Positions 37,559-64,000 of a DNA stretch of 64,000 nt are shown in pieces. The DNA comes from Sorghum bicolor. Taxonomy: Eukaryota > Streptophyta > Magnoliopsida > Poales > Poaceae. Made by a program: the position numbers and the translations under genes. The stretch lies in assembly GCF_000003195.3 (NCBI RefSeq), contig NW_018396400.1, positions 205,976 through 269,975 of the forward strand, read 5' to 3'. The notes under the pieces are model-generated. The model was not told the origin of the DNA. It ran no database searches and worked only from the letters and a program-made list of their open reading frames with translations. Every line of letters starts with the position of its first letter. Positions within the stretch are counted from its first letter, which is position 1.

Positions 37559-37570
37559 GCTCTGATACCA
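37559..37570 (-). other. Primer-binding site, second copy
   Basis: The minus strand reads TGGTATCAGAGC two bases after the LTR end, the standard plant Copia site complementary to the 3' end of initiator tRNA-Met. Its presence downstream of the 3' LTR shows that the middle LTR also served as a 5' LTR. Confidence 0.93.
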
Positions 37571-37572
37571 CT

Positions 37573-39452: not shown

Positions 39453-39466
39453 ATCTCCCCCTTTTT
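39453..39466 (-). other. Polypurine tract
   Basis: The minus strand reads AAAAAGGGGGAGAT directly before the LTR start, the same design as the tract at 32752. Related CTCCCCCT motifs on the plus strand near 39598, 40020 and 40106 are the repeated upstream copies. Confidence 0.85.
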
Positions 39467-43500: not shown

Positions 43501-43755
43501 AACTCCAAATATGCATTTGAAACCAAGATCACAAAGTTGAGCTACGGATAACAAGTTGAAGTTCAAGCTCTCTACTAGTAGCACATTGGAAATGCTCAAG
43601 TCATTAGATATAGCAATTTTACCAAGCCCTTTGACCTTGCCTTTGCCATTGTCACCAAATGTGATACTATCAACACCATGATCATCATTTGGCTTGATTG
43701 AATTGAACATTCTTGAATCACCGGTCATGTGTTGTGTGCACCCACTATCAAGCAC
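40564..43755 (-). CDS. Copia pol polyprotein: protease end, integrase, reverse transcriptase, RNase H (open throughout)
   Basis: 1,063 codons without a stop. Order by residue: protease active site [12 protein letters not shown] (about 2-13); gag-pre-integrase zinc region [13 protein letters not shown]...CSACQAGK (about 133-178); integrase core with [21 protein letters not shown] and [11 protein letters not shown] (D,D,E; about 195-305); RT from [11 protein letters not shown] with [32 protein letters not shown] and the catalytic [12 protein letters not shown] (about 600-790); RNase H with [20 protein letters not shown] and CDNESVVKL, ending with [11 protein letters not shown] and [12 protein letters not shown]. 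Integrase before RT is the Copia order. The listed first codon is GTG within HWVLDSG; translation would come from gag upstream, in the same frame but past two stops. It is the only undamaged large enzyme in the window. Confidence 0.95.
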
Positions 43756-43797
43756 CCAATGCCTTCCTCCGGCTTTATAGTTTACCTACAAAACAAA

Positions 43798-44898
43798 TCA
43801 ATGTTTCTTAGGTACCCATACTTGCTTGGGTCCTTGGAGGTTAGTGACCAAGCTCTTTGGTACCCAAATGGCCTTCTTCTTTGGACCCACAATTGGTGTA
43901 CCAACAAACTTAGCATGCACACCCTTCTCACCCTTGGTAAGTACATAACAAGAATCAAGTACATTAGCATTTTTCTTGTTCTTGTTCATTTTATTGCAAT
44001 TAAGCTCTAAGTGCCCAACTTTCTTGCATTTGTTGCAATACCAACCATTGCTCTTCATAAAGCTAGGCTTGTGAGTTGCAAAGGCTTTCTTGCCCTTCTT
44101 GGGGGTATAGCCTAATCCCTCTTTATTGAGAGAAAACCTTTGGCTACCCAAGCACTTTAGCAAGCGGGCCTCACCACCATAGGCTTTGCCTAGGGCGTGA
44201 GTGAGCTCATCCACCTCTCTCTTGAGAGTCTCATTCTCAACCTTTAGTGAGGTATCACAAGTGACACTAACACTAGAAGTAGAGGTAGAGTTGGTGGTGG
44301 TGGATGAAGACCTACATGAAGAGTTAGTGGCAACAACAATAGGTGGGTTGGGTGATTCTTTAATTAAGTCACATGTTGTGCCCACATCACATGATACAAC
44401 AACCTTTTCCTTGTTCTCTTCTAACAACAAGGAGTGAGCTTTCTCAAGCTTGGTGTGAGCCTTGCCAAGCTTCTCATGGGCTTCCACTAGCCTCTCATGA
44501 TTAGCATTGAGCTCATCAAAGGATTGCTCAAGAGCTTTTAACTTCTTGGCCAATTCTTTGCACTTCTTGTTTTTAGATTGAATAAGTGAGTCGGCTTGTT
44601 CTAGCATGTCCATGAGTTGTTCATTAGTGAATTCATTTTCATCATCACTATCACTATTATGTTCATGTTCACTTTTACTTTCACTCTCATCATATTGTAC
44701 CTTGTGGCCCTTGGCCATGAAGCATGAAGGAGTGTCGAAGAGTGACGGCTTGTTGATAGCAATGCTTGCAAGTGCCTTCTTATTGGATGCTTTGTCATCA
44801 TCACTTGAATCATCATCCGAAGAGGCATCACTATCCCATGTCACAACAAAGGATCCACCCTTCTTCTTCTTCTTGAAGACCATCTTCTTCTCCTTCTT
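43798..44898 (-). CDS. Sirevirus gag, C-terminal half: acidic region, coiled coil, zinc knuckle
   Basis: In the same frame as 44899-45870, separated only by the TAA at 44899-44901. It opens with a Lys/Ser/Asp-rich stretch, then a long heptad-rich coiled coil (LMDMLEQADSLIQSKNKK, AHEKLGKAHTKLEKAHSL), a Ser/Thr-rich linker, a knuckle CNKCKKVGHLELNC, and the terminal signature WVPKSLVTNLQGPKQVWVPK. It ends at TGA (43798-43800). A gag with coiled coil is usual in Sireviruses. With the internal TAA this part would not be made unless the stop is read through. Confidence 0.88.
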   Translation of the reverse strand, partial: KKEKKMVFKKKKKGGSFVVTWDSDASSDDDSSDDDKASNKKALASIAINKPSLFDTPSCFMAKGHKVQYDESESKSEHEHNSDSDDENEFTNEQLMDMLEQADSLIQSKNKKCKELAKKLKALEQSFDELNANHERLVEAHEKLGKAHTKLEKAHSLLLEENKEKVVVSCDVGTTCDLIKESPNPPIVVATNSSCRSSSTTTNSTSTSSVSVTCDTSLKVENETLKREVDELTHALGKAYGGEARLLKCLGSQRFSLNKEGLGYTPKKGKKAFATHKPSFMKSNGWYCNKCKKVGHLELNCNKMNKNKKNANVLDSCYVLTKGEKGVHAKFVGTPIVGPKKKAIWVPKSLVTNLQGPKQVWVPKKH

Positions 44899-45870
44899 TT
44901 ATTTCTTCTCCTTCTTGTTCTTCTTCTCATGCTCATCATGATCACTATTGTATGGACAATCCGCCACAATATGATCGGGGCTCTTGCACTTGTAGCATAG
45001 CCTCAAATATTCCTTGTTCTTGGAGTTGTCCCTTCTCTTTCTTGTATGGTAGCCCTTCTTCTTCATCATCTTACCAAACTTGCGGACGAAGAGTGCTAGT
45101 GCTTCATCATCACTATCATCATTAGAGCACTCCTCATCACTTGATTCTTCCTTCTTGGCCTTGCCCTTGTTCTTGCTCTTGGATGAAGAGCTAGATTTGA
45201 ATGCTACACTCTTCTTCTTCTTCTTATCATCATCATCCTTCTTCATGACCTCATCATCATCATTGTCATTGTATTGATCTTCGGTCATGACATCTCCAAG
45301 TACCTCATTGGGAGATACACCCGTCAATCCACCTCTAAAGATGATTGTTCTCAATGTCTTGAACCTCTTGGGCAAGCACATCAAGAACTTGTGAATGAAG
45401 TCCTCATCTTTCACTTTCTCACCAAGGCCCTTGAGATCATTGATGATGACTTGGAGCCTATAGAACATCTCTGGTATAGACTCATCATCCTTCATCTTGA
45501 AGTTTGAAAGCTTGTCCTTGAGCATATACAACTTGGCACTTTTTACCGTTGTAGTGCCCTCATATGTTTCTTCAAGCCTTGTCCACACTTCACTAGCCTT
45601 CTCAAGATCTTTGACTTGTTCAAATACCTTTGAATCAATGCCATTGTATATTGTGTTGAGAGCCATAGTATTGCATTGCTTGTTTGCTCTCTCATTGTCG
45701 GTGGGGTTAGCCGGATCAAGAATCACAAAGTCATTTTCGGTGACTTCCCACACTCTATCATTTATTGATCCAAGATACATTTTCATCTTTCTCTTCCAAT
45801 AGTCAAAAGAACTTGTGCCATCAAAGAACGGTGGTTTGCCCCCAACATGGTTGAACACTATTTGAGCCAT
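44899..45870 (-). CDS. Sirevirus gag, N-terminal half
   Basis: 323 codons from MAQIVFNHVGGKPPFFDG. The N-terminal domain (SFDYWKRKMKMYLGSINDRV, VWTRLEETYEGTTTVK, FIHKFLMCLPKRFKTLRT) is the UBN2-type gag domain of plant Copia elements. A Lys/Asp-rich low-complexity stretch and the knuckle CYKCKSPDHIVADC follow. It stops in a run of Lys/Glu codons at TAA, after which the frame stays open to 43798, so the complete gag was probably one 690-codon frame. The start is supported by the primer-binding site 46 bp upstream. Confidence 0.92.
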   Translation of the reverse strand: MAQIVFNHVGGKPPFFDGTSSFDYWKRKMKMYLGSINDRVWEVTENDFVILDPANPTDNERANKQCNTMALNTIYNGIDSKVFEQVKDLEKASEVWTRLEETYEGTTTVKSAKLYMLKDKLSNFKMKDDESIPEMFYRLQVIINDLKGLGEKVKDEDFIHKFLMCLPKRFKTLRTIIFRGGLTGVSPNEVLGDVMTEDQYNDNDDDEVMKKDDDDKKKKKSVAFKSSSSSKSKNKGKAKKEESSDEECSNDDSDDEALALFVRKFGKMMKKKGYHTRKRRDNSKNKEYLRLCYKCKSPDHIVADCPYNSDHDEHEKKNKKEKK

Positions 45871-45915
45871 AATTTGAGCACCGAGGTTGTTAAGCCTTCA
45901 CAAACGGTGACCACG

Positions 45916-45927
45916 GCTCTGATACCA
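45916..45927 (-). other. Primer-binding site (initiator tRNA-Met type)
   Basis: TGGTATCAGAGC two bases inside the 5' LTR on the minus strand, the standard plant Copia primer site. Confidence 0.95.
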
Positions 45928-45929
45928 CT

Positions 45930-47850
45930 TGAAAGGTCCTAATATGGCTAGAGGGGGGGTGAATAGCCTATTTAAAAATTCTACAAACTCAATAGAGCAA
46001 GAGGTTAGTAAAAAACAAAGCGAAGCTTTTTGCTCTAGCTCTAATGGGGTGTTTGCAAGCCACCTATCCAACAATTCTAGTTGATATAATCGCTAGGCAC
46101 ACAAGAGCTATGTCACCACTTACACTAGAAAGCTACCTAAAGTTTCTATACAAGTAAGTAAGCTACTCTAGTTTGCGGGAATGTAAAAGAGTGGATGAGA
46201 TAATTATACCACCGAGTAGAGGATGAACAAATCACCAATATAAACAATCAAGCACCGGGAGAATGCCAATCAAATACAATTGAGACACCGATTTTTCTCC
46301 CGAGGTTCACGTGCTTGCCGGCACGCTATGTCCCCTTTGTGTCGACCAACACTTGGTGGTTCGGTGGCTAAGAGGTGTAGCACGAACCTCGTCCTCACTA
46401 GGACACCACAAGAACCTACCCACAAGTGAGGTAACTCAATGACACGAGCAATCCACTAGAGTTACCTTTCGGCTCTCCGCCGGGGAAGGTACAAGACCCC
46501 TCACAATCACCGGGAGATGGCCACGAACAATCACCAACTCGTGCCAATCCTCCTCCGCTGCTCCAAGCCGTCTAGGTGGCGGCAACCACCAAGAGTAACA
46601 AGAAAACCGCAGCTAGAACGATCCCCAAGTGCCACTAGATGCAATCACTCAAGCAAATGCACTTGGAATCACTCCCAATCTCACAAAGATGTATAATCTA
46701 TGAAGGAGATGAGTGGGAGGTGTTTGCTTAGGCTCACAAGGATGTCTAGTAGTCAAGAAAGCCAAGAGAGTGAGCCCCAAGTCAGCCAAACACGTATTTA
46801 TTGCCCTTCAAACAAATAGAGCCGTTGGCTCTTTCACTGGGCGAAATACGGGATCACCGGACACTCTTAAAGGGGCACCGGACGCTCAGCCCTTGCGTCC
46901 GGTGCTCCAACGTCAGCCACGTGTCACCTTTTGAACTTCTCGTGTCAGAGTCTAACGGTCACCTGCAGTGCACTGGACGCTGAGCAAGTTAGCACCGGAC
47001 GCGTCCGGTGCACACCGGACTCATGCGCAGAGAGTTCCGCAAACCTGCGGGTCACCGGACGCTAAGCACCGGTAGCGTCTGGTGCTCACCGGACCCATGC
47101 GCAGAGAGGGTCGAAAAACGCCCGCACACCGGACGCGCACCACCGGACGCTCAAGCCAGCGTCCGGTGCCTATCGTCCGGTGCCTTACCCTAGCTGGGCC
47201 AGGCACTGTCTGCACCGGACGCTCAGACTCATCGTCCGGTGCTCCAGAAGCCAGCGTCCGGTGAGTGCTTCTCAGCGAGAAACACTCCCGTGACTTCTCC
47301 AAATTTCCCTCCGGCGCAATAGAAAATATGCACTTCATTTTCTCAAAAAGCGCCGAATCCCAACCCATCCTCTCTCTACCCTTCAAACTCCACCTCCTTC
47401 TCAAAGTGTGCCAACACCACAAAGTGTAAACCAACATGTGCACGTGTGTTAGCATTTTCACAATCATTTTCTTTGAAGGAGTTAAGTTAGCTCACTAGGT
47501 TCTAAATGCATGCACATGAATAATGACACCTAGTGGCACTTGATAACCGCTTAGCCAAAGAATTCCCCTCTTTATAGTACGGCTATCTATCCTAAATGTG
47601 ATCACACCCTCTATGGTGTCTTGATCACCAAAACCAAAACACTAAGCAATACCTTTGCCTTGATCTCCATAGGGTTTTGTTTTTCTCTCTCTTCTTTTCA
47701 AGTTGAGCACTTGATCACCTTGTGGTCATCACCATGATCATCTCTTGCTCCATCACTTGGCATGTACCAACCTCATTAAGTCTACACACACTTAGCATAG
47801 AGGTTAGTATTAGGGTTTCATCAATTATCAAAACCAAACAAGGGCTTTCA
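45930..47850 (-). repeat. Outer 5' LTR of the Sirevirus
   Basis: 1,921 bp, TG...CA ends, closely matching 37573-39452. It includes a palindrome cluster at 46855-47262 with two short segments missing from the middle LTR. Its TATA position reads GGGCAATAAATACG (near 46798-46803) where the middle LTR has GGGCTATAAATAAG, so the core promoter of the only LTR placed to drive the full unit is altered. Satellite resumes at 47851. Confidence 0.93.
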
Positions 47851-49083
47851 ATGGTGCATTAGGCACAAACCGTGCACCTATCTTGCACTGAAACTAACAT
47901 TGTCTCTAAATAGACCCAAGCGAGAATCCATATGACACATGTCATATAGGAGTTCTATTGAGTGCATCCAAATGGATTTCTGAGCATATGGTACGTTCCA
48001 TGCAAACCATGCTCCTATCTTGCATCAAGATTAGCACTATCTCCAAACATCGAAAAGAGCTTCCACTTGAGCCTCTTCACCTAGGAGTATTATCGGGTGC
48101 TTCTACAATGGTTTCTGAGCCAATGGTGTATTATGCGCAAACCATGCACCAATCTTGCACCTAAACTAACACTGACTCCAAACAGACCGAAGCGAGATTC
48201 CATATGACACACATCATCTAGGAGTTCTATCGGGTGCGTACAAATTGATTTATGAGAATATGGTACATTCCATGCAAACCGTACACCTATCTTGCATCAA
48301 GATTAGCACTATCTCCAAATAGACAGAACTGAGCTTTCACTTGAGCCTCTTCACCTAGGAGTACCATTGGGAAATGCTACAACAGTTTCTGAGCCTATGG
48401 TGCACTAGGCACAAACCACGCACCTATCTTGCACCAAAACTAATACTATCTCAAACTGGACCGAACCGAGATTCCATATGACACACTTCATCTATTAGTT
48501 CCATTAGGTGCATCTAGCAATTCCATTGGGTGTGTCCAAATTGATTTCTGAGCATATGGTACGTTCCATGCAAACCGTGCGTCTATCTTGCATCAAGATT
48601 AGAACTATCTCTAAACAGACTGAACCAAGCTTCCACGTGAGCCTCTTCACCAAGGAGTACCACCAGGTGTGTCCAAAATGGTTTCTTAGACTATGATGCA
48701 TTATGTGCAACCGTGCACCTATCTTGCACTGAAACTAACACTATCTCCAAATGTACTGAAGCAAGATTCCATATGACACACATCATCTAGGAGTTCTATC
48801 TATTGTGTCCAAATTGATTTTTGAGCATATGGTATGCTCCATGCAAACCATGCACCTATCTTGCATCAAGATTAGCACTATATCAAAATAGACCAAACCA
48901 AGCTTTCAGTTGAGCCTCTTCACCTAGGAGTACAATCGAATGCTTCCACAATGGTTTCTGACCCTATGGTGCATTAGGGGCAAACCGTGCACCTATATTG
49001 CACCAAAACTAACATTGTCTCTAAATAGACCAAAGCGAGACTCCATATGACACACATCATCTAAGAGTTCTGTTGGGTGCATC
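47851..49083 (+). repeat. 137-bp centromeric satellite array 5
   Basis: Same orientation; colinear with array 4 by shared private variants. It is interrupted at 49083 by the plus-strand Tat element, whose target duplication GCATC forms the last five bases. Confidence 0.88.
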
Positions 49084-49779
49084 TATTGACACCGTTTTTA
49101 GACACGTGTCCATGATTGGAAAAGTATGGGTCGGCAAGATAAGACGGCAGTGCTTGATCTACAGGATGAGTTGCCGATGAGGATGGTTGCCGATGGAGGG
49201 ATGGTTGAATGTGACTAAGTCCATAGGTGGTGATGTGTCTGTGCCGATGGCTACGACAAGGGAGTCTACCGATGATATGGGGGAAGAATCTAGAAGTTGC
49301 CGATCGGTTTGTGGAGGTGTTCCAGCTTGTCATGGGGGGATAGTTTTATGTTTTCCTTAGTTATTTAAATCGTTTTGTATACGGATTCTGTGTAATTTGG
49401 AATTCGAGTTCTAGTCATGTCTGGTTGTAGCTCTTTGAGCAGGGTATAAATGTAAACCCTAGGGCCTTGTAATGAGATATCGATCAATCAATCAAACACA
49501 AGTTTTTACTCATATTCCAGCATCTACTTTTTTGACGACTTCGTCATATTTTCCTTTTTTTACTACGAGTTCTTAGGAATTCGTCAACTTGAGCTTGGCG
49601 TATTCTCAAGTTACGCGTGAGTACCTCTTGGCCGTGACATCCGGGCGCATCGCTGTTGTCAGGACCAAAGTATTCGAGTTACCACCTTTGCCGATAGTAA
49701 GGTCAAATCGGCTGGCACGCCTTAACGTTTGAATCGGGTATTAGCCCTTTGTGTTTGCAGATCCGCTTTTGCACCAACA
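49084..49779 (+). repeat. 5' LTR of the plus-strand Tat element
   Basis: 696 bp, ending GCACCAACA. The partner begins TGTTGACACC while this copy begins TATTGACACC, a G-to-A change in the terminal TG. It contains a TATA box at 49445 and six copies of the ATCGGC/GCCGAT hexamer. Confidence 0.95.
49445..49451 (+). promoter_or_regulatory. LTR TATA box (TATAAAT)
   Basis: GCAGGGTATAAATGTAAACC in the 5' LTR; the 3' LTR keeps it as GCAGGATATAAATGTAGACC (61157-61163). It is a plausible core promoter for genomic RNA. Confidence 0.65.
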
Positions 49780-49782
49780 CAT

Positions 49783-49801
49783 CTTTTGGCACGCCCAGTG
49801 G
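49783..49801 (+). other. Primer-binding site candidate
   Basis: A few bases after the 5' LTR comes CTTTTGGCACGCCCAGTGG, with TGG at the expected position for pairing with a tRNA 3' end. The tRNA is not assigned. Confidence 0.5.
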
Positions 49802-49826
49802 GACAGATTCAAGATCAAGGTCAACA

Positions 49827-52711
49827 TGTCGACTTCTGAGTTTGATCAGGAGAACGTCATCCCCGTGACGGAAGCCAATCTCAAGGATGAGCAGAAGCAA
49901 GCTATTGCTAAAGCCATGGAGGATTACAAGCAACAATGCCTAAAGTCCTTCAGCATGAACAGGAGCGGCGAAGTGATCCAGAAGGATGCACTACCGGCAC
50001 CTCGGCAGGTTACTTTTGAAGCCAATCCTGGTAAACTTCAAGAGATGGTTGACAGTGCTATCAACCATGCTTTGATCAACCAAGCTGGTGTACTGTCCAA
50101 TACGGTTTTCAATGTCATGGCCAGAACCTTCAAGGAAGGACAATTACCACCAGATTATGTGGGCCCCTCTCATCATCAGCCAGGGTCACCGATGGTCACG
50201 GCTCCATCGGCTGCTACAGCCGCTGCGGGTGCACAAACTACCGTTCCTCCAAGTACGTTGGGAATTACTAATGCACAATCTATGCTGATGACAACAAATC
50301 CACCGACTTCAGATGAGCAGATTAGACTCACCACGGATCTATTGGCATCGGCGATGTCAGGCCTGGTACCTCCTCCCAACTGGTGGGGTTATGGTATGCC
50401 CCTAGAATACTTGAAGACACCTGGCACGTCTCAGGCAACTGATATGAGAGGTAAAGGTCCTATGGCATCGGCACCCCCAAATATGCCGATGAACCAGAGT
50501 CCCCAGTATACTACAACTACTACTGCAAGACCTTACACTGGGAATTCTCAAGCTCCAACGTTCCAGATGCCTAACGCATCGGCAGACTCAATGCTGGTGC
50601 AACAGAGGTCTATGACTCAACCAGGGTATGTCAATTCAATGATAATGCCCAATTATCAGTCATCGGCAGGACCTATGCCGATGAATGCCAATACTGGATG
50701 GCTTGGGTAGCAAGTCTTTCCACAAACACCCCAACATAGTCATCAAGCTACCGGGTTCCAGCAAGGATAGATCTATCCCGGGTTCCAGAATCACGGAATC
50801 CCTAACCAACCAATGAATCTCGGGCAGCAGATTGGTGGGCAACAGCTTGGTGGTCCGCAGATTGGGGGCCAAATGATTAACCCAATGTTCCATGCAGATC
50901 GCGCACCGCATAGATACGTGGAAGCTTACCAGCAGGTGCCAGATCCGCAACCACCTCATCGGCAAGATGCCGATGCTTATTGGGCCGATAAGATTGCTGA
51001 AGTAATGAGGGACCAATTTGGGATAAAACCCAAAGTCAACACTTACTCTTATCGGACACCGTATCCTCCCGCATATGATTTGATCCCGCTTCCAAATCGG
51101 TACAAGGTACCGGATTTTACTAAGTTCTCTGGGCAAGATGACACGTCGACCATGGAGCACGTCAACAGGTTCATCATTCAATGCAGTGAAGCTGGTAACA
51201 GGGACGAGTTAAGGGTTCGCTTATTCTCATCGTCGTTGTCTGGATCGGCTTTCACCTGGTTTATATCATTACCTCCCAATTCAGTGATTACTTGGGCCGA
51301 TCTGGAGAAACAATTCCACAAATACTTCTTTTCTGGGGTCCATGAGAAGAAGATCACCGATTTGGTCAAATTGAGACAGCGCAATGATGAATCGGTTGAA
51401 AGTTTTGTGCAGAGGATACGGGAAGTCAAGAACAAATGCTATAGTCTGGTTCTGGATGATCGGCAGCTAGCCGATTTGGCCTTCCAGGGTTTATTGCCGC
51501 ACATAAGGGACAAATATGCATCTCAGGAGTTTGAAAGCTTAAGTCATCTGGTGCAGAGAATCTCTGATCAACACATCAAGCCGTTTGAACCCAAGAGAGC
51601 ATGGAATAAAAAGGTATCATTTGTGGATGAAGCGGCAAGCTCAGACTCTGACGAAGAACCAGTCATCGGCTTGGCAGAATGGGTGAAAAATAAGAAGCCG
51701 ATGTCTTGTCCTTTTGGACATAAAGAACCAGAGAAGTTCGCGTTTGACACTGCTAAGGCCGATAGGATATTGGACTTTCTACTTCAGGAAGGTCAGATCA
51801 AGCTGTCACCTAATCACGTGATCCCATCGACTGAAGAATTAAAAAGGATGAAATATTGCAAGTGGCACAATGCAACTTCTCACGACACTAATGAGTGCAA
51901 GGTTTTCAGACAGCAACTGCAATCGGCTATAGAGTCTGGAAGAATCAAATTTGACAGTTCCAAAACCCAGAAGCCAATGAAGATCGATCAACATCCTTTC
52001 CCAACGAACATGTTGGATGCTAAGGGAAAGGCTAAGGTCTTAACATCAGAAGCAGCCGAAAGAAGTGCATCGGTGGATCCTCAGCATCAGGTCACTACTG
52101 CCGACGCGAGAGGAAGGGGCTTGATCCAGGAAGGAACTAGCTCAAGAAGGCCTCCCCGATCTGGTATCGTTATAACTCACAGAAGACCTCGGGAAACTTG
52201 GCAGCAGCGTGAGGATCGATATCGGCGCCAGCAGGAAGATTATCGTCGGGAAGAAGAAAGACGCCGACAGGAGTGGAATCGGCATAGGGATCACTGGAAT
52301 TGCCCGTTCTTCATCCATTGTTGGGAGGAGAATATCAAGCTTCCCACTGTCAGAGATTGTCCTGAGTGCAACGGTTATGATCGGTATAGGTCCGATCGAC
52401 GCTATCACGACGATAATCGGCGATCTAATGGGCCGATTAGAGGAAGAGCATCCGTTCACGATCGGCTGGGGGGCAGGCTCAGTGTGCACGACAAGCTTGG
52501 CGATCGTGTTGGATATTTTCCCAGGAACCAGGAAGAACTTGAAGAAATGGCTAATGCACGGGTTCCCGACGAGTTCATATTTTGCAGGGATGCCAATACG
52601 TATCGGATGGAGTCAAGGGAAAATCGTCGCCCAGCGGCAAGGCAGCAGCAACTTCCTCCATTTATGTTTAGAGGGGTTGACCAGGACACAGAAGAGAAGA
52701 CTGCAGCGTGA
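49827..52711 (+). pseudogene. Tat gag with two premature TAG stops
   Basis: The frame opens at MSTSEFDQENVIPVTEANL and continues to 52711 apart from TAG at 50708-50710 and 50768-50770. It has a long Pro/Gln/Met-rich N-terminal region (NMPMNQSPQY, NLGQQIGGQQLGGPQIGGQ). The retrotransposon gag domain follows (VPDFTKFSGQDDTSTMEHVN, LSGSAFTWFISLPPNSVITW, LKQ-like EKQFHKYFFSG, RQRNDESVESFVQRIREVKN). Next come a Cys/His stretch (YCKWHNATSHDTNECKVF) and an Arg-rich tail. The last residues before 52711 are probably out of frame, because the following protease frame starts near 52670. Confidence 0.88.
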
Positions 52712-53467
52712 ACGGCGAGAAGGGTTAAGCAAGGGCGAGAACTCTGGCCAGTCTGGGGATCAGCAGCAATCAGATCCCAAGGGGGAAGGTCCATCGGCAG
52801 ATGTCAACATGGTCTTTATGTTGCCGATGGAGTTCCTTGCGCCATCCAGTGATGATGAGTTAGAGTTTTCTGATCAGATAGCTCAGTTAGCTCTAGATCC
52901 GATGACAGCCATCTTCGAGAAGCCTGCCGATGATGAAAGGCAACATCTTAAGGCTCTGTTTGTCAAAGGAAGGGTTGATGGTCAGCCGATGACCAAGATT
53001 TTAATTGATGGTGGGGCTGCTACCAATATCATGCCATATACAGTGTATCGGAAGCTTGGAAAAGGAGATCAGGACCTGACCAAGACCGATATGATGCTCA
53101 AGGACTTCGAGGGCAATGTATCCCCAGTTAAAGGAGCTATCTGCGTAGAATTGACCATCAGTAGCAAAACCTTGCCGACGACCTTCTTTGTGATCAGTGG
53201 AAAAGGGGCTTACAATCTTCTGCTAGGAAGAGATTGGATTCATGCCAATTGCTGCATCCCATCTACAATGCACCAGTGCTTGGTCTAGTGGGTGGGTGAC
53301 AAGATTGAAATTGTCCCGGGAGACTCTTCATATGTTATTGCATCGGCGAAAGCAGACACCTATGAAAGGACTAGGTGTATTTCAGGAGAAGCTTGGGAAA
53401 AGGATTTCCTCAAGGTTGCCGATTATGAAATTCCACCGATCCAAGCAGTCGGTTCTGAGGATGCTTT
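52670..53467 (+). pseudogene. Tat aspartic protease region
   Basis: In the frame after gag: GLTRTQKRRLQRERR, then VKGRVDGQPMTKILIDGG with the active-site DGG, AATNIMPYTVYRKLG, and the LLGRDWIHANCCIPS segment typical of this protease. TAG at 53286-53288 interrupts the end, and a one-base change in a T-run near 53463-53467 puts the downstream RT in another frame. It would cut the polyprotein. Confidence 0.85.
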
Positions 53468-53470
53468 TTA

Positions 53471-56400
53471 ATGGATAGGTTCGCCGATGATGGAAAATTA
53501 GGCCAGGGATTCACATCGGCCGATGATCTAGTAGAGGTAGATATATGTAGTGGTAATAAGCCTAGACCCACTTTTATTAGTGCTAAATTAGATTCTGAGT
53601 GTAAGCAACAATTAACCAATTTGTTAAAGGAATATAGAGATTGCTTTGCTTGGGATTATACTGAGATGCCTGGTTTGGACCGATCAATTGTTGAACATCG
53701 GTTACCTATCAAGTCTGGATTTTGGCCACATCAGCAGCCGGCTCGCCGATGTAATCCTAATATCCTCCCTGATATTAAGGCCGAAATCACCAAACTTATT
53801 GAAGCCAAGTTTATTCGGCAGTGTCGGTATGCCGAATGGATTTCCAATGTTGTTCCGGTCTACAAGAAGAACGGGAAGCTTCGGGTCTGCATTGATTTTA
53901 GGAATCTCAATAAAGCTACGCCGATGGATGGATACCCAATGCCAGTTGCCGATCTGCTAGTTGACGCCGTGGCTGGGCATCGGGTTATTAGCTTTATGGA
54001 TGGCAATGCAGGATACAATCAAATATTCATGGCTGAAGAAGATATTCCAAAGACCGCATTCAGATGCCCTGGTCATGTTGGATTGTTTGAATGGATAGTT
54101 ATGACCTTTGGTTTAAAGAATGCTGGTGCTACTTATCAAAGGGCCATGAATTTTATATTTCATGAGTTCATCGGCAAGCTGGTGGAAATTTATATTGATG
54201 ATATGGTGGTTAAGTCTGGAGATTTCACAAAGCATCTTGCCGATTTGCGAAAGGTGTTGGAATGCACAAGGAAGCATGGTTTGAAAATGAATCCCAATAA
54301 GTGTGCATTTGGTGTATCGGCAGGACAATTTCTTGGTTTCATGGTGCACCAACGGGGGATTGAAATTAGTCGAAGATCTATTGATGCCATTAATAAGATA
54401 GTGGCCCCTACCAACAAGACCGAGCTCCAGTCCTTGATCGGCAAGGTAAATTTTATCAGAAGGTTTATATCTAATTTGTCTGGTAAAATTCGTGCTTTCA
54501 GTCCTCTTCTTAAGCTAAAGGCCGATCAAGAGTTTGTTTGGGGAAAGGAACAGTAGTTGGCTCTGGATGAAATCAAGAATTATTTAGTGAATCCTCCAGT
54601 TCTAATTCCACCTCAGCAAGGGAAGCCCTTCAGATTGTATTTGTCTACCGATGGGATGGTCATCGGTTCGGCTTTAATTCAAGAGTTTGAAGGAAAGGAG
54701 CGTGTAATTTATTATTTAAGCAGGAGGTTGATTGATGCTGAGACCAGGTATTCGGCTATTGAGAAACTGTGCTTGTGCTTATTTTTCTCTTGTATCAAGT
54801 TAAGGCACTACTTGTTATCGGCCGAATGCACTGTTATTTGCAAGGATGATGTGGTCCGGTACATGCTGTCCATGCCGATTATGAGTGGCAGGATCGGTAA
54901 ATGGATTTTGGCGCTGTCGGAGTTCGATCTGCGTTATGAATCGGCTAAGGCAGTTAAAGGGCAGATTATGGCCAATTTTGTAACTCAACATTGCGGTACA
55001 GTGGAGGCTTTGGAAATTGTACCTTGGACGTTGTTCTTTGATGGATCCACATGTGACCGGGGGGCAGGAATCGGTATAGTATTAATTTCCCCTCGGGGGA
55101 GGAGGTATGAGTTTTCCTTGCCGATTGTTGCCACGTCGACGAATAATCAGGCTGAGTATCAAGCTTTAATAAAGGGATTGGAATTGTTGAGGGAAGTTCA
55201 TGCTGATGCTGTTGAGGTCTTCGAAGATTCTATGTTGGTTATAAATCAATTGGCTAGAAGCTATGAATGCCGAAGTGAAGTTCTCATAACTTATTACGAG
55301 CAGAGTATGCAATTATTGAAGGAATTCAAGGATTTCCGATTAGAGTATGTTCCTCGATTGCATAATGAAGAGGCCAATCGGTTGGCTCAGCATGCCTCGG
55401 GATATCAGCCTATGATTGATGCAATATCGGCGATTGGTGCCGATGATTGGAGAAAAGAAATCGTTGATTATTTGAAAGATCCATCTAAGAGAGTTGAAAG
55501 GTGAGTTCAGTTTCAAGCCACCAAGTATGTGCTCCTCGAAGATGAATTGTACTATCGAACTATTGATGGGATTCTTCTCCGATGCTTGGGTGATGATGAA
55601 GCTAGAAGTTTGATGGGAGAAATCCATGAAGGGGTATGTGGAGCACATCAGTCCGCTTTCAAGATGAAGTGGATGATTAGGAGGAAGGGATATTATTGGC
55701 CGACTATACTTGAGGATTGCTGTAAATATTTCAAAGGGTGTCAAGGGTGTCAAAAGTTTGGTAATATTCAAAGGGCGCCTGCATCGGCTATGAATCCTAT
55801 TATAAAGCCTTGGCCGTTCCGAGGATGGGTTATTGATTTGATCGGCCAGATTTATCCACCATCTAGCAAGGGGCATAAGTTTATTGTAGTTGCCACCGAT
55901 TATTTCACTAAATGGGTTGAAGCTATTCCTTTGAAAAAAGTCACATCGGCCAATATGATTGATTTTGTGAAAGAGCATATCATTTACCGATTTGGGATTC
56001 CTCAAACAATTACTACCGATCAGGGCACTATGTTCACATCAGGGGAGTTTGATGAATTCGCAATCGGTATGGGGATTAAAGTGTTAAACTCTTCTCCTTA
56101 CTATGCTCAAGCTAATGGGCAGGCCGAGGCGTCTAACAAAGGAATTATCAAGCTTATCAAACGAAAAATTGAAGAAAATCCTAAGCGGTGGCACACATTG
56201 TTAAATGAAGCATTATGGTCCTATCGAATGGCTTGTCATGGATCAACCAAGGTTTTACCCTATCAGTTGGTGTATGGACATGATGCAGTGTTGCCTTGGG
56301 AAATTAAGGCTGGATCTAGGCGACTATCTTTTCAAGATCAATTGGCTGCCGATGATTATGCCACTTTGATGACCGATGAGTTAGATGATCTAGCAGGACA

Positions 56401-56704
56401 TCGGTTAAAGGCTTTAATGAGTATAGAAGAAAATAAGAAGAGAGTTGCTAGATGGTATGACAAGAAAGTGAAGGCTAAGGAGTTTGCCGATGGAGACTTA
56501 GTGTGGAAATTAATTTTACCGATCGGGACTAAAAGTTCAAAGTTTGGAAAGTGGTCTCCTAATTGGGAGGGTCCCTATCGGATAAGTCGATCGGCTCCTG
56601 GTAACGCCTACATTTTAGAAACTCTCGAAGGAGTTGAATTTCCCAGAGCATTAAATGGCAAATATTTAAAGAAGTACTACCCCAGCATATGGGTCGATGC
56701 ATAA
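53471..56704 (+). pseudogene. Tat pol: RT, RNase H, archaeal-type RNase H, integrase, with two stops
   Basis: One frame interrupted only by TAG (54554-54556) and TGA (55502-55504). RT: NGKLRVCIDFRNLNKATPMD, SFMDGNAGYNQI, and EIYIDDMVVKS with YIDD in place of the usual YVDD. First RNase H: LYLSTDGMVIGSALIQ, ETRYSAIEKLCL. Second, archaeal-type RNase H: WTLFFDGSTCDRGAGIGIVL, NNQAEYQALIKGL, EDSMLVINQLA; where its last catalytic Asp is expected the text reads NEEANRLAQ, with Asn. Integrase: zinc region HEGVCGAHQ...CQGCQKFG, then WVIDLIGQIYPP, TTDQGTMFTS and NGQAEASNKG, the D,D,E set complete. A C-terminal LVWKLILPIGTKSSKFG and NWEGPYRIS follow. Two RNase H domains mark the Tat lineage. Confidence 0.93.
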
Positions 56705-57005
56705 AAGTTTAAATGCCGATAACACTCCTATTGGCTGGATTAAAATGTATCTGGGGCCGGATTTAATGTTTCAAAAGATGCCGATAACAATCCTATCGGC
56801 TAGACTAAACGTCAAGAAGGCTGGGAAGCAGAGAGAAGCAAGTATCTTGCCGATGAAGGGCTCATATGTTTAGCAGCGCTTCGATGGCCGATATGGCACG
56901 TAGGCGGATTTGGTTGGCTGCTTCTATTTCTTTAATGTCTTCATCAGCAGAACCTTCTATCGGCTTCAACTTCTTCAGCTACAATGCTTTGCGACCATGG
57001 GCATT
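56705..57005. other. Spacer between convergent pol and antisense gene
   Basis: About 300 bp without a gene. It holds six or so copies of the ATCGGC/GCCGAT hexamer, a high density for such a short stretch. I see no AATAAA for either transcript. Confidence 0.55.
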
Positions 57006-59992
57006 TCACTCTTGCTCAAGGAGTCTGATGGTTTCTGGCAATTGATTCTCTTCCTGTTGGGCTTGGGATAGGGCATCCTCCACTTGCTTGAGTTCTGCCA
57101 ATAGGGCTTCTCGTTTTGCCGATAGGTCAGAGATCTTCTGCTTCAGTGTGTCTCCAAAGGATTTCAGAATGCCGATGTTCTTGTGCTTCTCATCGGTCAG
57201 GAGCTTTTCTTTCATCATCTCCTCAGAAAGTTGGGTCTGAGCAGCTCTATCGGCAAGGCGTTGGGCAGCTTTCTGATACTGCAGCTGACGACTCTCCAGA
57301 TGTGCGGCCTGGAAGAGGATTTCTTCAGCATCGGTAGGAATCTGGCCTCTGAGGGTTTTGAACAGAGCCTTGGCCAGGTCAGAGTTATCGACCAGTTGAG
57401 CCGTGTCTTGATGGAGGAGAGCCGACAGTTCTTCCAACTTTGCCCTGATCTCTGCCGATGCGATCCCAACTGCCCGGGAGGAACTTGCTTCCTCACCTTC
57501 ATCTTGAGAGATGTCAATGGCAAAGGAAAATAGGCTGTTGGGAGAATCCTGTTCCTGAAAAGGAAAACAAAGTGAGTCATTCTATGGTTAGAGCATCGGC
57601 AAATAATACTGATGGAGATTGGATGGCTTACTTGCTTCAAGGCAATCTCTCGCCTTTGACTGGAAAATGCCGATGAAGCCACGGGTTGATCGGCCAGAGT
57701 TGCCGATGGAACTACGTCAGCTGAAAGTTAACAGAAGGGGTTATAAGGCCAAAAAAGAATAAGTTCATCGACAGTAATGTTATAAAAGTGTGTTACCTTG
57801 AGGAGGGACGATGCTTGTCTGGATTGAAGAAACTACCGATGATATGATTGAACCTGCCGGATCGGTAGTTTGCTCGCCTACCTCGGCTGATGTGTCTTCT
57901 GGCTGGGGTGCTTCTAATTGGGGTTCTTCTAGCTGGGGTTCTTCCGCTTGTGGTGCTTCTTGCGGTTGAGGAGGAGATGGTACTTGCTGAGTCTCTGTTT
58001 CTGGGGGAGAAGGAGAGGATTCCACCGGAATGGGAGATACCAGAGGAGGAGGAGGAGTTGCTACTCTCTGGCGCTTCGCCTGTGCTCTGGTACTCTTGGC
58101 ACCCTTTCTCTTTTGCTAGCTGGATTGGGGGGCATCGGCACCTTTGCTTTTGGTCCTTGTCGATGCACTGGTTTGCTGATACAGAAAAGAAAATTTGTGA
58201 GTACCAATGTAGCAGATGTAAAAGGAAGATCGGTATAAATGAAGAGGTTTGGCAATTACCTTGAAAGCCTGTGCTAGAGTGGAAGCAGCTACCGATGGTG
58301 ATGTCTGAGTTCTCCTGGTGGTAACTTTCTTGAGGCGTATGCCTCGATGCACGATGGCGGCCAGGGTAGGAGCGTTGTGGCCGATTGAAGAGATGGGACC
58401 TGATGCAAACAGATCAATCGGCTTGCCACTTCTACTGACCGATGGAGGGGTGTTATCAACCTGCAAAACGGTACAAAAGTAAATCACCGATGGAAATGAA
58501 ATTGGGAGAATTGAAACATCGGTTTAAAGACACTTACAGTATCATTGGGGACTTTGTACTCGGGATCGATCATACCACGGTACGTGAGGGCCGATTTGTA
58601 GAATAGATGCTCCTTCCATTCTGCCCACCACTGCTTGTACGCTTGAGTGATGAAGGCGGCTGGAACCCACTCCGATAAGTCTACGTCTGTATCGGCACCC
58701 GATGGCAGTTGGGCTACTCGAATCCATTCAAGGAGGCTGGTGATGGTTTCCCTGGGCTTTATCACATCGGCATAACAGAGTGCAATCGGCAGCTGGCCGA
58801 AAGCTAACTGATGAGCTAGTGCCAATGGATTGTAGAACTCATAAGTCTGGGGGGAGGTTTTCCCACTACCAAAGAAGGTCACCGGTATGACTCTGGGAGT
58901 CACCAATGCCATCATTACTTCGTTGTCCTTGTCAAGAGCATCGTTGAACGGGTTGAAAACTAGAGGAAACATAGTGTCTGGGTCATCATAAGCCAACCAT
59001 GCTCGCTCATCTCTGGCCAAACCTTCGTACAAGGTTTGGAAGAATCGGCTAACTTGATCTGGATTACCCCCTGTACCAGGCAGAACTATGACAGCTTCAC
59101 CGAAGTTCAAGGGAGGGTGTGTTGCCGATTCTTCTTCATCCAGTACATAGTCCTCGGCTATGTCCCTTGGAAAGCGCTGTGCAAAGAGGTCGAACTCAAG
59201 GCGCTTGTGCATGTGGAGGCTGAGCCACATGTTGATGAACCACCAAGGACCTCCTAAGTTACCGATAGACTGGCCGAGTAGGAGTTTCCTCGTTACTTGG
59301 TGGAGGAGGTGATAGGCTGCTCCGAGCAGGTATCGGCCGAGGGGGAATCGGCCACCATTGGCCAGATTTTCTGCTGCTGCTAGGTAAACGGAGGTTGGTC
59401 CTGCTGATCGGCCGCAAAAAACGAACTTATCTAACCACATGTTCAAGAAGCAGGTCTGCTCTTTTATGTTGACAGGGCTTGTTCGGCTGTATTTCTGGAT
59501 GTACCCTGACCAACCGCCGATAGCACGAGTTTCTACCTTGGCCTTGGGTTTGGTATCGAAGAAATGGGTGCTATCGGCAGAAGATACATCTAGGCCAGTA
59601 AGCATGGCCACATCGGCAAGTGTAGGGGAAGCAGGGCCGTGGCCAAAGACAAAGGCATTGAGTGTGTCTGACCAGAAGTATGATACAGCTATCAACAGTG
59701 ATTCATTCCTATGCATATCGGCAATGGACAACCTAATGTATTGGTCTAGCTTTCTATCGCCCCATTGGACTTCATTTGAGTTACTGACCCTCAAAAACCA
59801 ATCCGTCCATCCTACAGTAGGGCTGGGCCAAGAACGGAAAGTATCCTTCCACAGATCCAAAGAAAAGTTCTCGGTCCTAAAAGGAATCCTGTTGGTTTCT
59901 GCGTTAATGAGATCGGTTGGATCTGGATCCCCTAACGGGCCAAGGCATTGAAGGTGTGGTTGATCGGTGGGGATGACAATTTTGTTAGACAT
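57006..59992 (-). pseudogene. Antisense accessory gene of the Tat element: plant mobile domain plus coiled coil, five exons, one stop
   Basis: Runs opposite to gag-pol. Exon 1 (59992-58538, 485 codons from MSNKIVIPTDQPHLQCLGP) has the look of a plant mobile domain (PMD, PF10536; aminotransferase-like): SLIVAV-like SLLIAVSYFWSDTLNAFV, PASPTLADVAMLTGLDV, NLGGPWWFINMWLSLHMHKR, ARDERAWLAY. GT-AG borders give exons 58460-58260, 58175-57797, 57720-57632 and 57554-57006. Exons 1 and 2 end in phase 0, exon 3 in phase 1 and exon 4 (89 nt) back in phase 0; the frame holds through all four junctions, which is strong evidence the introns are real. The middle is Pro/Gln/Glu-rich (PPQPQEAPQAEEPQLEEPQL). 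The end is a coiled coil (KQKISDLSAKREALLAELKQ). The only stop inside is TAG at 58116-58118. PMD proteins MAIN and MAIL1 of Arabidopsis act in silencing; the role here is unknown. Confidence 0.82.
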
Positions 59993-60292
59993 TTCCTAGT
60001 GGTTTTGGAGGTAGAGAAAAAAAACACAAAGAAAGGAAAAGAAAATGTTCAGTAAGATGGATTGTGGATGAACAGGGGTGCGAGAAAAAGTACAAGAGAT
60101 GGAGTGAAGAACTGACCTCAGGAACGATGAAGTTGACGGCCATCTTGCCACGGGGAGGATGATTGAGGGCTTCGAAGTTGGTGAAGAAAGGACTTCGTCG
60201 GAGATCTTGGGGATCTTGAATAGCGCCGCCGCCGGGAAAGTAAAGTTGGGGTTGTGGAATGATGTGATGGAGAAGGAGTACCCGAGAAGGAA

Positions 60293-60302
60293 CTATTTAT
60301 AG
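60293..60302 (-). promoter_or_regulatory. TATA box of the antisense gene (CTATAAATAG)
   Basis: The minus strand reads GTCCTATAAATAGTTCCTTC about 300 bp upstream of the antisense ATG. It is a near-ideal plant TATA box placed to fire away from the 3' LTR into the antisense gene, and it is outside the LTR, so the gene appears to have its own promoter. Confidence 0.65.
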
Positions 60303-60780
60303 GACAAAACGGGCAAGGGTAAAATTGACTTATCTCTTCGCCGTATCCGTGAAATCCGAGGGTACTCAGGTAGATATGGTAACTGTTCGCGCGGTAATCA
60401 AGGGATTGTGCAGTTGATTTGACAGGAAGCGGTCATTATCCAGAGATATTTTACTGCGTGGGATCTCTAGGTCGGTCCATCGGCAGCACCTTGTAACGGT
60501 CATATTGCCGATAGGCGAATAAAGTGGAGATAGCCGTTTGGGAGGATAAGATATGGACGTCCTGGTCAGCACATCGGCAAGTCCCTGTGAAGGTAATATT
60601 GCCGATGCGCGACTAAAATGGAAATGTCCGTTTGGAAAGTTGAGGATTCTGAGGAATCTGCGGAAGAATCAAATCAAAGTTGTTCAGATTAAGGCTGTCG
60701 GTTACCAGATTGGGAGCATTAATTGCGGAAAGGCATCATTACTGTAGAGAATTTCGGAGCATTAATGATTTCATACTCCG
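60303..60780. other. Spacer between antisense promoter and 3' LTR
   Basis: No gene. It holds two similar stretches ('CATCGGCAGCACCTTGTAACGG...TTGCCGATAGGCG' near 60479 and 'CATCGGCAAGTCCCTGTGAAGG...TTGCCGATGCGCG' near 60572). Each is a pair of inverted hexamers about 25-30 bp apart, so this upstream region carries duplicated inverted motif pairs. Confidence 0.6.
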
Positions 60781-60795
60781 AAATTGGGGGGCATG

Positions 60796-61490
60796 TGTTG
60801 ACACCGTTTTTGGGCACGTGTCCATGATTGGAAAAGTATGGGTCGGCAAGATAAGACGGCAGTGCTTGATCTACAGGATGAGTTGCCGATCAGGATGGTT
60901 GCCGATGGAGGGATGGTTGAATTTGACTAAGTCCATAAGTGGTGATGTGTCTGCGCCGATGGCTACGACAAGGGAGTCTGCCGATGATATGGGGGAAGAA
61001 TCTGGAAGTTGCCGATCGGTTTGTGGAGGTGTTCCAGCTTGTCATGGGGGGATAGTTTTATGTTTTCCTTAGTTATTTAAATCGTTTTGTATACGGATTC
61101 TGTGTAATTTGGAATTCGAGTTCTAGTCGTGTCTGGTTGTAGCTCTTTGAGCAGGATATAAATGTAGACCCTAGGGCCTTGTAATGAGATATCGATCAAT
61201 CAATCAAACACTAGTTTTTACTCATATTCCAGCATCTACTTTTTCGACGACTTCGTCATATTTTCCTTTTTTACTACGAGTTCTTAGGAATTCGTCAACT
61301 TGAGCTCGGCGTATTCTCGAGTTCCGCGTGAGTACCTCTTGGCTGTGACATCCGGGCGCATCGCTGTTGTCAGGACCAAAGTATTCGAGTTACCACCTTT
61401 GCCGATAGTAAGGTCAAATCGGCTGGCACGCCTTCACGTTTGAATCGGGTATTAGCCCTTTGTGTTTGCAGATCCGCTTTTGCACCAACA
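60796..61490 (+). repeat. 3' LTR of the plus-strand Tat element
   Basis: 695 bp, TGTTGACACC...GCACCAACA, differing from the 5' LTR by a limited number of substitutions. It is preceded by the purine-rich AAATTGGGGGGCATG (60781-60795), the polypurine-tract candidate. Seven copies of the hexamer. Confidence 0.95.
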
Positions 61491-64000
61491 GCATCCAAAT
61501 TGATTTCTAAGCATGTGGTATGTACCATGCAAACTGTGCACCTATCTTACATCAAGATTAGCACTATCTCAAAAGAGACCGAACCAAGCTTCCACTCAGC
61601 CTCTTCACCCAGGAGTATCATCGGGTGCTTCCACAATGGTTTCTGAGCCTATGGTGCATTAGGTGCAAACAATGCACCTATCTTGCACCAAAACTAATAT
61701 TGTCTCCAAACAGACCGAAGCAAGATTCTATATGACACACAATATCTAGGAGTAATATCGGGTGCATCGAAATTGATTTCCAAGCATATAGTACGTTCCC
61801 TGCAAACCGTGCACCTATCTTGCATCAAGATTAGCACTATCTCCAAACCGAGCTTCCAGTTGAGCCCCTTTACCTAGGAGTACTATCATGTGTGTCCAAA
61901 ATGTTTCTTAGCCTATGGTGCGATAGGCACAAACTGTGTACCTATCTTGCACCAAAACTAACTCTATCTCCAAAGAGAGCGAAGTGAGATTCTATATGAC
62001 ATATGTCATTAAGAGTTCTATTAGTTGTGTCTAAATTAATTTCTAAGCATATGATACGTTCCATGCAAACCAAGCACCTATCATGCATCAAGATTAGCAC
62101 TATCTCCAAACAGACCAAACCGAGCTTCCACTTGAGCCTGTTCACCTAGGAGTATCATCGGGTGCTTCCACAATGGTCTTTGAGCCTATGTTGCATTAGG
62201 CGCAAACCATGCACCTATCTTGCATCGAAACTAACACTGTCTACAAATGTACTGGAGCGAGATTCCATATGACACACATCATCTAGGAGTTCTATTGGGT
62301 GCGTCCAAATTGATTTCTGAGCAGATGGTATGTTCCATGTAAACCGTGCATCTGTCTTGCTTCAAGATTAGCATTATCTTCGAATAGACCAAACCGAGCT
62401 TTCACTTGAGCCTCTTCACCTAGAAGTACCATTGGCTGCTTGGACAATGGTTTCTGATCCTATGGTGCATTAGTTGCAAACCGTGCACCTATCTTGCAAC
62501 GAAACTCACACTGTCTCCATACAGACCAAAGCGAGATTCCATATGACACACGTCATTTAGGAGATCTATAGGGTGCTTCCAAATTGACTTCCGAGCATAT
62601 GGTACATTCCATGCAAACCATCCACCTACCTTGCATCAAGATTAGCACTATCTCCAAACTGAGCGTCCACTTGAGCCCCTTTACCTAAGAGTACCATCGC
62701 GTGCGTCCAAAATCTACCTATCTTGCACTAAAACTAACACTATCTCGAAAGAGACCGAAGTGAGATTCTATATGATACATGTCATCTAGGAGTTCCATCG
62801 GGTGCCTCCAAATAGATTTCTAAGCATATGCTACGTTCCATGCAATTCGTGCACCTATCATGCATCAAGATTAGTACTATCTCCAAACCAAGCTTCCACT
62901 TGAGCCCCTTTACCTAGGAGTACCATCTCGTACGTCCAAAATGGTTTCTTAGTCTATGGTGCATTAGGCACAAACTGTGTACCTATCTTGCACCAAAACA
63001 AACTGTCTCCAAATAGACCGAAGCAAGATTCCATATGACACTTGTCATCTGGGAGTTCTATTGGGTGCGTCTAATTGGATTTCTGAGCATATGGTACGTT
63101 CCATGCAAACCATGCACCTATCTTGCATCAAGATTAGCACTATCTCCAAACAGATCGAACCGAGCTTCCACTTGAGCCTCTTGACCTAGGAGTATTATCG
63201 GGTGCTTCCACAATGGTTCCTGAGCTCATGGTGCATTATGCGCAAACCGTGCATCAATCTTGCACCTAGACTAACACTAACGCCAAACGGACCGAAGCGA
63301 GATTCCATATGACACATCATCTAGGAGTTCTATCAGGTGCGTCAAAATTGTTTTCTGAGGATATGCTACGTTCTATGCAAACCGTACACCTATCTTGCAT
63401 CAAGATTAGCACTATCTCCAAACAGACAGAATCGAGCTTTCACTTGAGCCTCTTCACCTAGGTGTACCATCGGGAACTTCTACAACAGTTTGTGAGCCTA
63501 TGGTGCACAGGGCATAAACAACGCACCTATCTTGCTCCGAAACTAATACTATCTCCAACTAGACCGAACCGAGATTCCATATGACACACATCATCTATTA
63601 GTTCCATCAGGTGCATCTAGCAGTTCCATCGGGTGTGTCCAAACGGATTTCTAAGCATATGGTACGTTCCATGCAAACCGTGCACCTATCTTCCACTTGA
63701 GCCTCTTCACCTAGGAGTATCATTGGGTGCTTCCACAATGGTTCTGAGCCTATGGTGCATTATGCGCAAACCGTGCACCAATCTTGCACCTAAACTAACA
63801 CTATCTCCAAACAAACCGAAACAACATTCCATATGACACACATCATCTAGGAGTTCTATTGGGTGCATCCAAATTGATTTCTGAGAATATGGTACATTCC
63901 ATGCAAACCGTACACCTATCTTGCATCAAGATTAGCAGAATCTCCAAACAGACTGAATGGAGCTTTCACTTGAGCCTCTTCACCTAGGAGTACCATCGGG
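61491..64000 (+). repeat. 137-bp centromeric satellite array 6
   Basis: Continues array 5 across the Tat insertion (GCATC then CAAATTGATTTC). Its first 600 bp share private variants with 20320-20900 ('TATCTCAAAAGAGACC', 'ATCGGGTGCATCGAAATTG'). Runs off the window. Confidence 0.88.

Follow-up and report, generated by a model that had tools for sequence, protein, structure and literature searches.

A dense GCCGAT word maintained along a PMD-bearing Tat-type retrotransposon family of sorghum, a candidate array of protein-binding sites

Why should one hexamer recur along an entire retrotransposon, in its terminal repeats, its spacers and its genes alike? The question is raised by a 64,000-nucleotide stretch of the Sorghum bicolor genome (contig NW_018396400.1, positions 205,976 to 269,975; the window), in which a long terminal repeat (LTR) retrotransposon lies at 49084-61490 between two satellite blocks and carries, between pol and the 3' LTR, an antisense gene whose first exon encodes a plant mobile domain (PMD). 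A sequence-only reading had put the copies of GCCGAT/ATCGGC (the motif) in this element at about 97; the exact number is 99, made up of 51 GCCGAT and 48 ATCGGC, or about one copy per 125 bases, and ACCGAT/ATCGGT adds 37 copies over the same interval. The window as a whole holds 113 motifs, 14 of them outside the element. As that reading had also stated, this carpet of motifs ends at the satellite borders: no copy occurs from 42,437 to 49,172, which includes the satellite ahead of the element, or anywhere past 61,423.

The motif excess is real and strong, and the ordinary explanations that we tested do not account for it. Markov models of order 1, 2 and 3 predict 5.1, 10.9 and 55.6 motifs on both strands of the element against the 99 observed; these models were fitted to the element itself, motif included, and order 3 already holds most of the word. 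GCCGAT was the top-ranked hexamer of the element under all three orders. Among the variants ACCGAT was the strongest, with 4.7 copies expected, and GCCGAC occurred only 7 times. When synonymous codons were shuffled within ten open reading frame (ORF) segments, which preserves the protein and the codon use of each, 14.0 motifs were expected on both strands and 70 were observed. Coding copies fall in all three codon phases and in both orientations, and a single segment of the ten (57780-58115) holds none. Codon use is thereby ruled out as the cause of the excess.

Broken down by region, the two LTRs contain 6 and 7 motifs, the stretch from gag through the gap after protease 29 (23+4+2), the reverse transcriptase-ribonuclease H (RNase H)-integrase region 23, and the 3' half 34 (4+13+13+4). 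The earlier regional estimates were thus right to within one or two copies (about 22 in pol and about 33 in the 3' half, with the LTR and gag-protease figures matching), and these counts and the 51:48 strand split bear out the statement that the motif occurs in both orientations and in LTRs, spacer, sense exons and antisense exons. Enrichment over the first-order expectation was about 12-fold or more in the LTRs taken one by one, in gag, protease and pol, in the two portions of the antisense gene and in the spacers. The weakest region was the spacer that precedes the 3' LTR, where the 4 motifs equal the maximum of 300 simulations, and a 41-base stretch after the 5' LTR had no motif. Markov-corrected and divided by region and codon phase, the excess stands in LTRs and spacers and in every phase, rather than shrinking to one phase of gag and pol as the sequence-only reading had allowed that it might.

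The sequence around the motif is informative at positions -2 and -1 (T) and +6 (G), with almost nothing farther out. The predicted site is approximately (T)T(G/A)CCGAT(G), asymmetric and 6-9 bp long; TTGCCGATG and TTACCGATG are written-out words that could serve as binding probes. Spacing between motifs has a coefficient of variation of 1.04, and randomly placed motifs gave 0.83-1.20 in simulation. Because the flanks are nearly uninformative and the spacing is random-like, we regard the motifs as single dispersed sites and not as copies of a repeat unit. Tandem Repeats Finder detected one short motif-containing array in each LTR and no other motif array. A tandem or duplicated unit is ruled out by flank logo, spacing and Tandem Repeats Finder together, so that the earlier claim that neither codon use nor a repeat unit explains the motif holds on both counts. 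The strands are balanced (48:51, binomial p 0.84), and 57 of 98 adjacent pairs are in opposite orientation (p 0.13); no significant dimer-like orientation or spacing of neighbouring motifs was seen in the element. Within the LTRs most motifs share one orientation (5:1 and 6:1). Near 49268 the 5' LTR has ACCGAT where the matching column of the 3' LTR has GCCGAT; one of them must have mutated since insertion, and the two forms are interconvertible.

To follow the motif over evolutionary time, we compared the window copy with six others, picked for the motif pattern of their LTRs, and used as controls pooled hexamers that contain one CpG and match the motif in GC content. Five of these copies, 80-86% identical to the window copy, kept 64-78% of its motifs but only 23-41% of the controls, and held 84-101 motifs in their aligned parts. 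The sixth (L015/L016, 76% identity), with 29 motifs in its aligned part, kept 26% of motifs and 10% of controls. In the five copies, retention of motifs exceeded that of controls in the LTR (21/26 against 91/188), gag (80/115 against 279/934), pol (107/146 against 410/936), the 3' part of the antisense gene (56/85 against 146/600), the PMD exon (49/64 against 99/427) and the spacer (13/19 against 81/332). Two subfamilies, represented by L021 and L056 at 81% identity, have 30 of 35 motifs in common and 109 of 310 controls.

The PMD exon gave the sharpest view of synonymous change. Taking the sites from the window copy alone, we scored 27 other copies, which are related and not independent trials: motif hexamers were kept at a rate of 0.863, control hexamers at 0.425 and all other hexamers at 0.540, and synonymous third positions varied at 0.040 within motifs, 0.249 within controls and 0.196 elsewhere. 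One of the 13 PMD-exon sites is an exception, being kept in just 0.37. Among PMD proteins of 60-75% identity, residues compatible with the motif occupied 0.84 of sites as opposed to 0.45 of other hexamers. At 30-45% identity the values were 0.27 and 0.18, not significant by permutation, and three proteins at 45-55% identity gave the opposite direction (0.17 at motifs, 0.34 at other hexamers). Selection on the motif in related copies, raised as a question by the sequence-only reading, is thus supported in six regions and by the low synonymous variability of the PMD exon. We conclude from these comparisons that the family retains its dense motif in coding DNA in spite of synonymous drift, and this is the firm part of our results.

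A word could also persist if it were protected from methylation-driven mutation, in which case old copies should show less decay at motif CpGs. We scored CpG-to-TpG and CpG-to-CpA changes after insertion in 27 copies, with columns binned by their share of CpG. Where at least 90% of copies have CpG, motif and other cells decayed alike (27/640, 0.042, and 62/1,291, 0.048; p 0.64), which excludes a mutational cold spot as the main cause. Motif cells decayed less in columns of at least 80% CpG (65/986 against 239/2,693, p 0.026), although such looser columns also contain lineage differences, where selection acts. Non-CpG C-to-T or G-to-A changes were equally rare (0.027 in motifs, 0.029 outside), and all non-CpG changes came to 0.019 and 0.027. 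Motif CpGs may enjoy a modest protection from decay. Conserved columns show little or no difference and comparisons between lineages a large one, so the sites appear to be kept mainly by selection on replicating copies.

The carpet is a family trait. We picked 38 loci through the PMD protein, without regard to the motif and with the window itself as one of them, and all 38 carry it, at 24-42 copies per 3-4.5 kb. A PMD-exon search of the same genome scored 85 loci among 5,707 candidates, all of at least 89% protein identity; each of the 30 excised (window included) has 25-39 GCCGAT per 4.5 kb. With the rice-type PMD protein P0088, 56 loci were listed, of which 39 have no stop in the matched stretch and 31 of these a 512-residue frame. 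All six loci excised from this list, at 78-84% DNA identity to the window copy, carry 32-42 motifs per 4.5 kb. The densest excised loci are L052, L054, L055 and L056, with 40, 40, 42 and 42 motifs per 4.5 kb and 94-98% mutual DNA identity; L052 and L055 have one stop each, L054 and L056 none. L053 likewise has no stop, and 32 motifs. In the 8 kb adjoining L056 (622 bases common to both) we counted 65 motifs, over what are pol and gag by position only. Two outliers, hand-picked from the hit lists, also carry the carpet: L058 with 35 motifs in 4.0 kb and L059 with 24 in 3.0 kb. L059 was the only one taken from the 57 matches of another rice-type protein, P0095, which share 27-40% identity (36-40% within the PMD part) and in several cases fall at places already known. 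No PMD family with a different word appeared among the excised PMD loci, which all have the same core, in searches that scored the best candidates only; in viral and bacterial contig collections no relative was confirmed.

In two lineages the site itself may have shifted. L015/L016 is the most diverged, with a PMD 62% identical and LTRs 91% identical; it retains the core, relaxed to RYCGAT (60 with GC, 32 with AC, 28 with GT and 22 with AT) and followed by a stronger G. GTCGAT relative to GCCGAT stands at 28 to 60 there and at 7 to 99 in the window element (Fisher p 8e-6); L015/L016 is an old copy in which decay may contribute to GTCGAT, although the forms expected from CpG decay are fewer there (19 and 19). 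This locus also has two PMD-like stretches. In L058 the core is followed by A more often than by G (16:9, against 21:45; p 0.008). These shifts may be the first signs of a drifting site specificity.

The organization of the element is that of a Tat-type Ty3/gypsy retrotransposon by domain layout, and its PMD gene alone places it with Ogre and not Retand. Ogre elements have a primer binding site of the tRNA-Arg type. Its 5' LTR occupies 49084-49783 (plus strand; 6 motifs, 0.23 expected) and its 3' LTR 60787-61490 (plus strand; 7 motifs); aligned as 49075-49783 and 60787-61495, the pair is 96.8% identical over 710 aligned bases. Between them gag, protease, reverse transcriptase, RNase H and integrase follow in gypsy order, all on the plus strand. 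The gag region (49745-52711) consists of two open frames, 49745-50710 and 50771-52711, the second matching Retrotrans_gag (PF03732, E 3.5e-15), with 7 and 16 motifs where the synonymous shuffle gives 1.25 and 2.8. The aspartyl protease frame at 52713-53288 reaches 28.3 bits against a gathering cut-off of 28.2 (PF13975) and has 4 motifs against 0.9 by codon shuffle. Reverse transcriptase, RNase H, additional RNase H and integrase (PF00078, PF17917, PF13456, PF00665) extend over 53459-56704, where segments of 11, 6 and 6 motifs compare with 2.6, 1.6 and 0.8 under the shuffle; the frame at 54557-55504 has RT_RNaseH at residues 22-123 and RVT_3 at 161-280, and the integrase frame follows. An additional RNase H between RNase H and integrase is described for angiosperm Ogre and Retand elements (PMC6317226).

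The antisense gene begins on the minus strand with the PMD exon at 58484-59995, which has 503 open residues, matches PF10536 (E 8.2e-17, 61.8 bits against a cut-off of 34.9) and contains 13 motifs against 2.4 by codon shuffle. Its 3' exons at 56865-58523 (minus strand; 13 motifs in 56865-58483) encode a proline-rich, basic linker and then a C-terminal region, as judged by tblastn with P0012, P0095, P0098 and others. P0012, which matches the C-terminal region, carries a PF07197 annotation; in a direct hmmscan of 57006-57581 PF07197 was not found. Relatives of the antisense protein in Miscanthus and rice continue from the PMD through the basic, proline-rich linker to a coiled-coil-like C-terminal part. 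In one predicted Miscanthus floridulus protein, P0006, the PMD is joined to an rve integrase domain, probably through a nested insertion or a gene-model fusion. The spacer at 59996-60786, with 0.34 motifs expected, separates the antisense gene from the 3' LTR. The satellite around the element has a 137-bp unit and presumably resembles the sorghum/sugarcane centromere repeat.

Other elements of the window have no comparable carpet. A second Tat element, TatA (6191-18101), had been credited with about six motifs; it has 11, of which 3 are coding (3.2 expected by codon shuffle). TatA is Retand-like, with a Transposase_28/TRP28 match (PF04195) at 7929-8597 and integrase matches below the Pfam cut-off, and no PMD was seen among its ORFs scanned. 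Its top word, CGACCA, reaches 35 copies against 6.4 overall (about 5-fold) and 12 against 6.6 in coding DNA by codon shuffle, partly inside a 70-bp tandem repeat at 7278-7521. An element at 36553-47852 has 2.95-kb repeats and a pol frame of copia-like appearance; in it CACCGGAC occurs 28 times against 0.1 expected and clusters in the LTRs in blocks of about 400-500 bp instead of being dispersed; the same word also clusters at 138-488 and 33607-34092. Neither word is comparable to GCCGAT, and the idea that every element has its own carpet was rejected.

What, then, reads the sites? The explanation we put first, with somewhat less than an even chance of being right, is that (T)T(G/A)CCGAT(G) forms a dispersed array of binding sites that is read for the element's benefit, with the PMD protein as the leading candidate reader. 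The entire element would be an array of single sites for a sequence-specific protein that binds double-stranded DNA. Binding along the whole element, and not at a promoter or to RNA, is suggested because the strands are balanced, neighbours show no orientation preference, exons and spacers are equally dense and the word is asymmetric; a benefit to the element is suggested because the lineages still replicating kept the sites. The reader would be, less certainly, the element's own antisense protein, PMD together with the coiled-coil-like C-terminal part. It is the first candidate because the gene is kept in the family, because PMD proteins of the host take part in silencing transposable elements (TEs) and have a connection to a promoter motif, and because TatA, in which no PMD was seen among the ORFs scanned, has no carpet. 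In Arabidopsis, TEs are silenced by the host proteins MAIN and MAIL1, both with a PMD (PMC5418596, PMC7156037), and MAIN/MAIL1-dependent genes share a promoter DNA motif (PMC7156037). A PMD protein that recognised the element encoding it, through sites about 125 bp apart on average, could keep the chromatin expressible or mark the element as self, in the manner of the VANC proteins of Arabidopsis VANDAL elements, which bind a short word multiplied in their own element and remove methylation (PMC5735166, PMC10398659). The fuller version, in which the antisense PMD protein binds some 100-140 sites per copy of about 12 kb and makes each copy a self-recognition array, escaping or managing silencing as a unit and independently of VANC, is plausible but held with greater reserve.

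Several observations weigh against this proposal. The association of PMD with the motif is partly built in, since the loci were found by PMD. Structure and fold searches of the PMD were uninformative, with no confident fold, and no known DNA-binding domain was seen; at an E threshold of 0.1 its only sequence match in the PDB was to a fusion of myosin and GCN4 (E 0.003), which we ascribe to coiled-coil similarity. In columns of at least 70% CpG, motif CpGs decay less than others (65/986 against 365/3,248 changed, p 1.4e-5). Finally, VANDAL motifs are described as lying in noncoding tandem repeats, whereas the sites of this element are single and dispersed, with a density in exons as elsewhere.

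An unlikely but serious competitor is a host nuclear protein (an activator, pioneer factor, insulator or replication factor) that the element recruits, the PMD gene being unrelated to the sites. A selected, asymmetric site of 6-9 bp in double-stranded DNA is silent on whose protein reads it, and closely paired motifs also occur outside the family: four of eight loci from a genome-wide pattern search (L002, L003, L005, L008) have no DNA match to the element. Plant DREB factors bind RCCGAC; the core is near this site but not identical to it, and GCCGAC itself is rare in the element, as given above. What argues against a host promoter factor is that it needs sites in the LTR, and not an even spread over gag, pol and the antisense exons.

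It is distinctly improbable that another protein of the element, such as Gag, integrase or the C-terminal antisense product, reads the sites in compacting or protecting complementary DNA (cDNA) or in steering integration with respect to the element's own copies. Gag and integrase both meet the element's cDNA from end to end, which would explain the full-length coverage. However, the usual substrate of Gag is single-stranded RNA, for which one orientation would be expected and not the balance found here, and TatA has gag and integrase domains (the latter below the Pfam cut-off) yet no GCCGAT carpet.

Still less probable, in our view, is that the PMD protein reads the sites in the reverse sense and restrains its own family as a form of copy-number control. 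The TE silencing by MAIN and MAIL1 noted above would be in keeping with such a role. Selection acting on individual replicating copies would maintain a brake less readily, however, and the four loci with the most sites, L052, L054, L055 and L056, look recently active by their mutual identity; as a caveat, L053, stop-free with fewer motifs, means that site number does not simply track intactness.

We consider it very unlikely that the motif acts in RNA, with forward and reverse copies pairing in one transcript and so folding or dimerising the genomic RNA: equal numbers of the two orientations would allow many pairings of 6-9 bp, but opposite-orientation neighbours are not in significant excess, LTR sites are mostly in one orientation, and the flanks are asymmetric and short. 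An artefact of mutation or composition, whether through codon use, through amplification of a unit or through a methylation-protected word, is scarcely credible as long as the control hexamers are fair: TE DNA is compositionally odd, other elements of the window have over-represented words and motif CpGs decay less in the two looser column classes, but the synonymous shuffle, the region test, the flank logo and the conservation across copies speak against it, as does the lack of a decay difference at 90% CpG or above and in non-CpG C-to-T and G-to-A changes.

If the PMD protein does bind the motif, the role of PMD genes and sequence-specific counter-silencing by a retrotransposon become one question, and a true self-recognition array would account for the presence of PMD genes in Ogre-type elements. 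The extra antisense genes found in LTR retrotransposons of plants, PMD included, are described as so far without an assigned function (PMC7264820, PMC6317226, PMC9289625), and a motif kept by the family gives a direct handle on the function of PMD genes in retrotransposons. The family also shows that the coding sequence of a transposon can be shaped over its full length by DNA-level selection for a short word, which affects how selection and age are read from such elements.

In a literature search that covered neither preprints nor most subscription papers, no LTR retrotransposon with a comparable carpet came to light. The element resembles Ogre/Tat elements in its additional RNase H between RNase H and integrase and in its extra PMD gene, which is antisense here and lies between pol and the 3' LTR. 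PMD is reported in 57% of Ogre elements, and in contrast to the present family no saturating motif is mentioned for them in the available text (PMC6317226). Retand elements with antisense TRP28 (Transposase_28) genes have tandem repeats in about half of cases (PMC11963269); they differ from our element in the domain of the antisense gene, TRP28 instead of PMD, and the Retand-like TatA of the window is without a carpet. The likeness to MAIN/MAIL1 and the 'DOWN' promoter motif of Arabidopsis is that PMD proteins are linked both to TE silencing and to a short motif in DNA, but those are host genes that act in silencing and gene expression (PMC7156037). The sequence-only reading had suggested an independent system of the VANDAL/VANC kind. 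A motif multiplied and selected within its own element is the part of that suggestion that stands. The layout is dispersed, not one of noncoding tandem repeats, and the element is not a member of the VANC/VANDAL system, though it may work in a similar way. The word bound by VANC21 is YAGTATTAY, and VANC21 was not detected on exon control sequences (PMC5735166, PMC10398659). As in the pairs VANDAL21/VANC21 and VANDAL6/VANC6, a short word has multiplied in a family of TEs that also encodes a candidate reader, here in an LTR retrotransposon instead of a Mu-like DNA transposon and with a different protein family.

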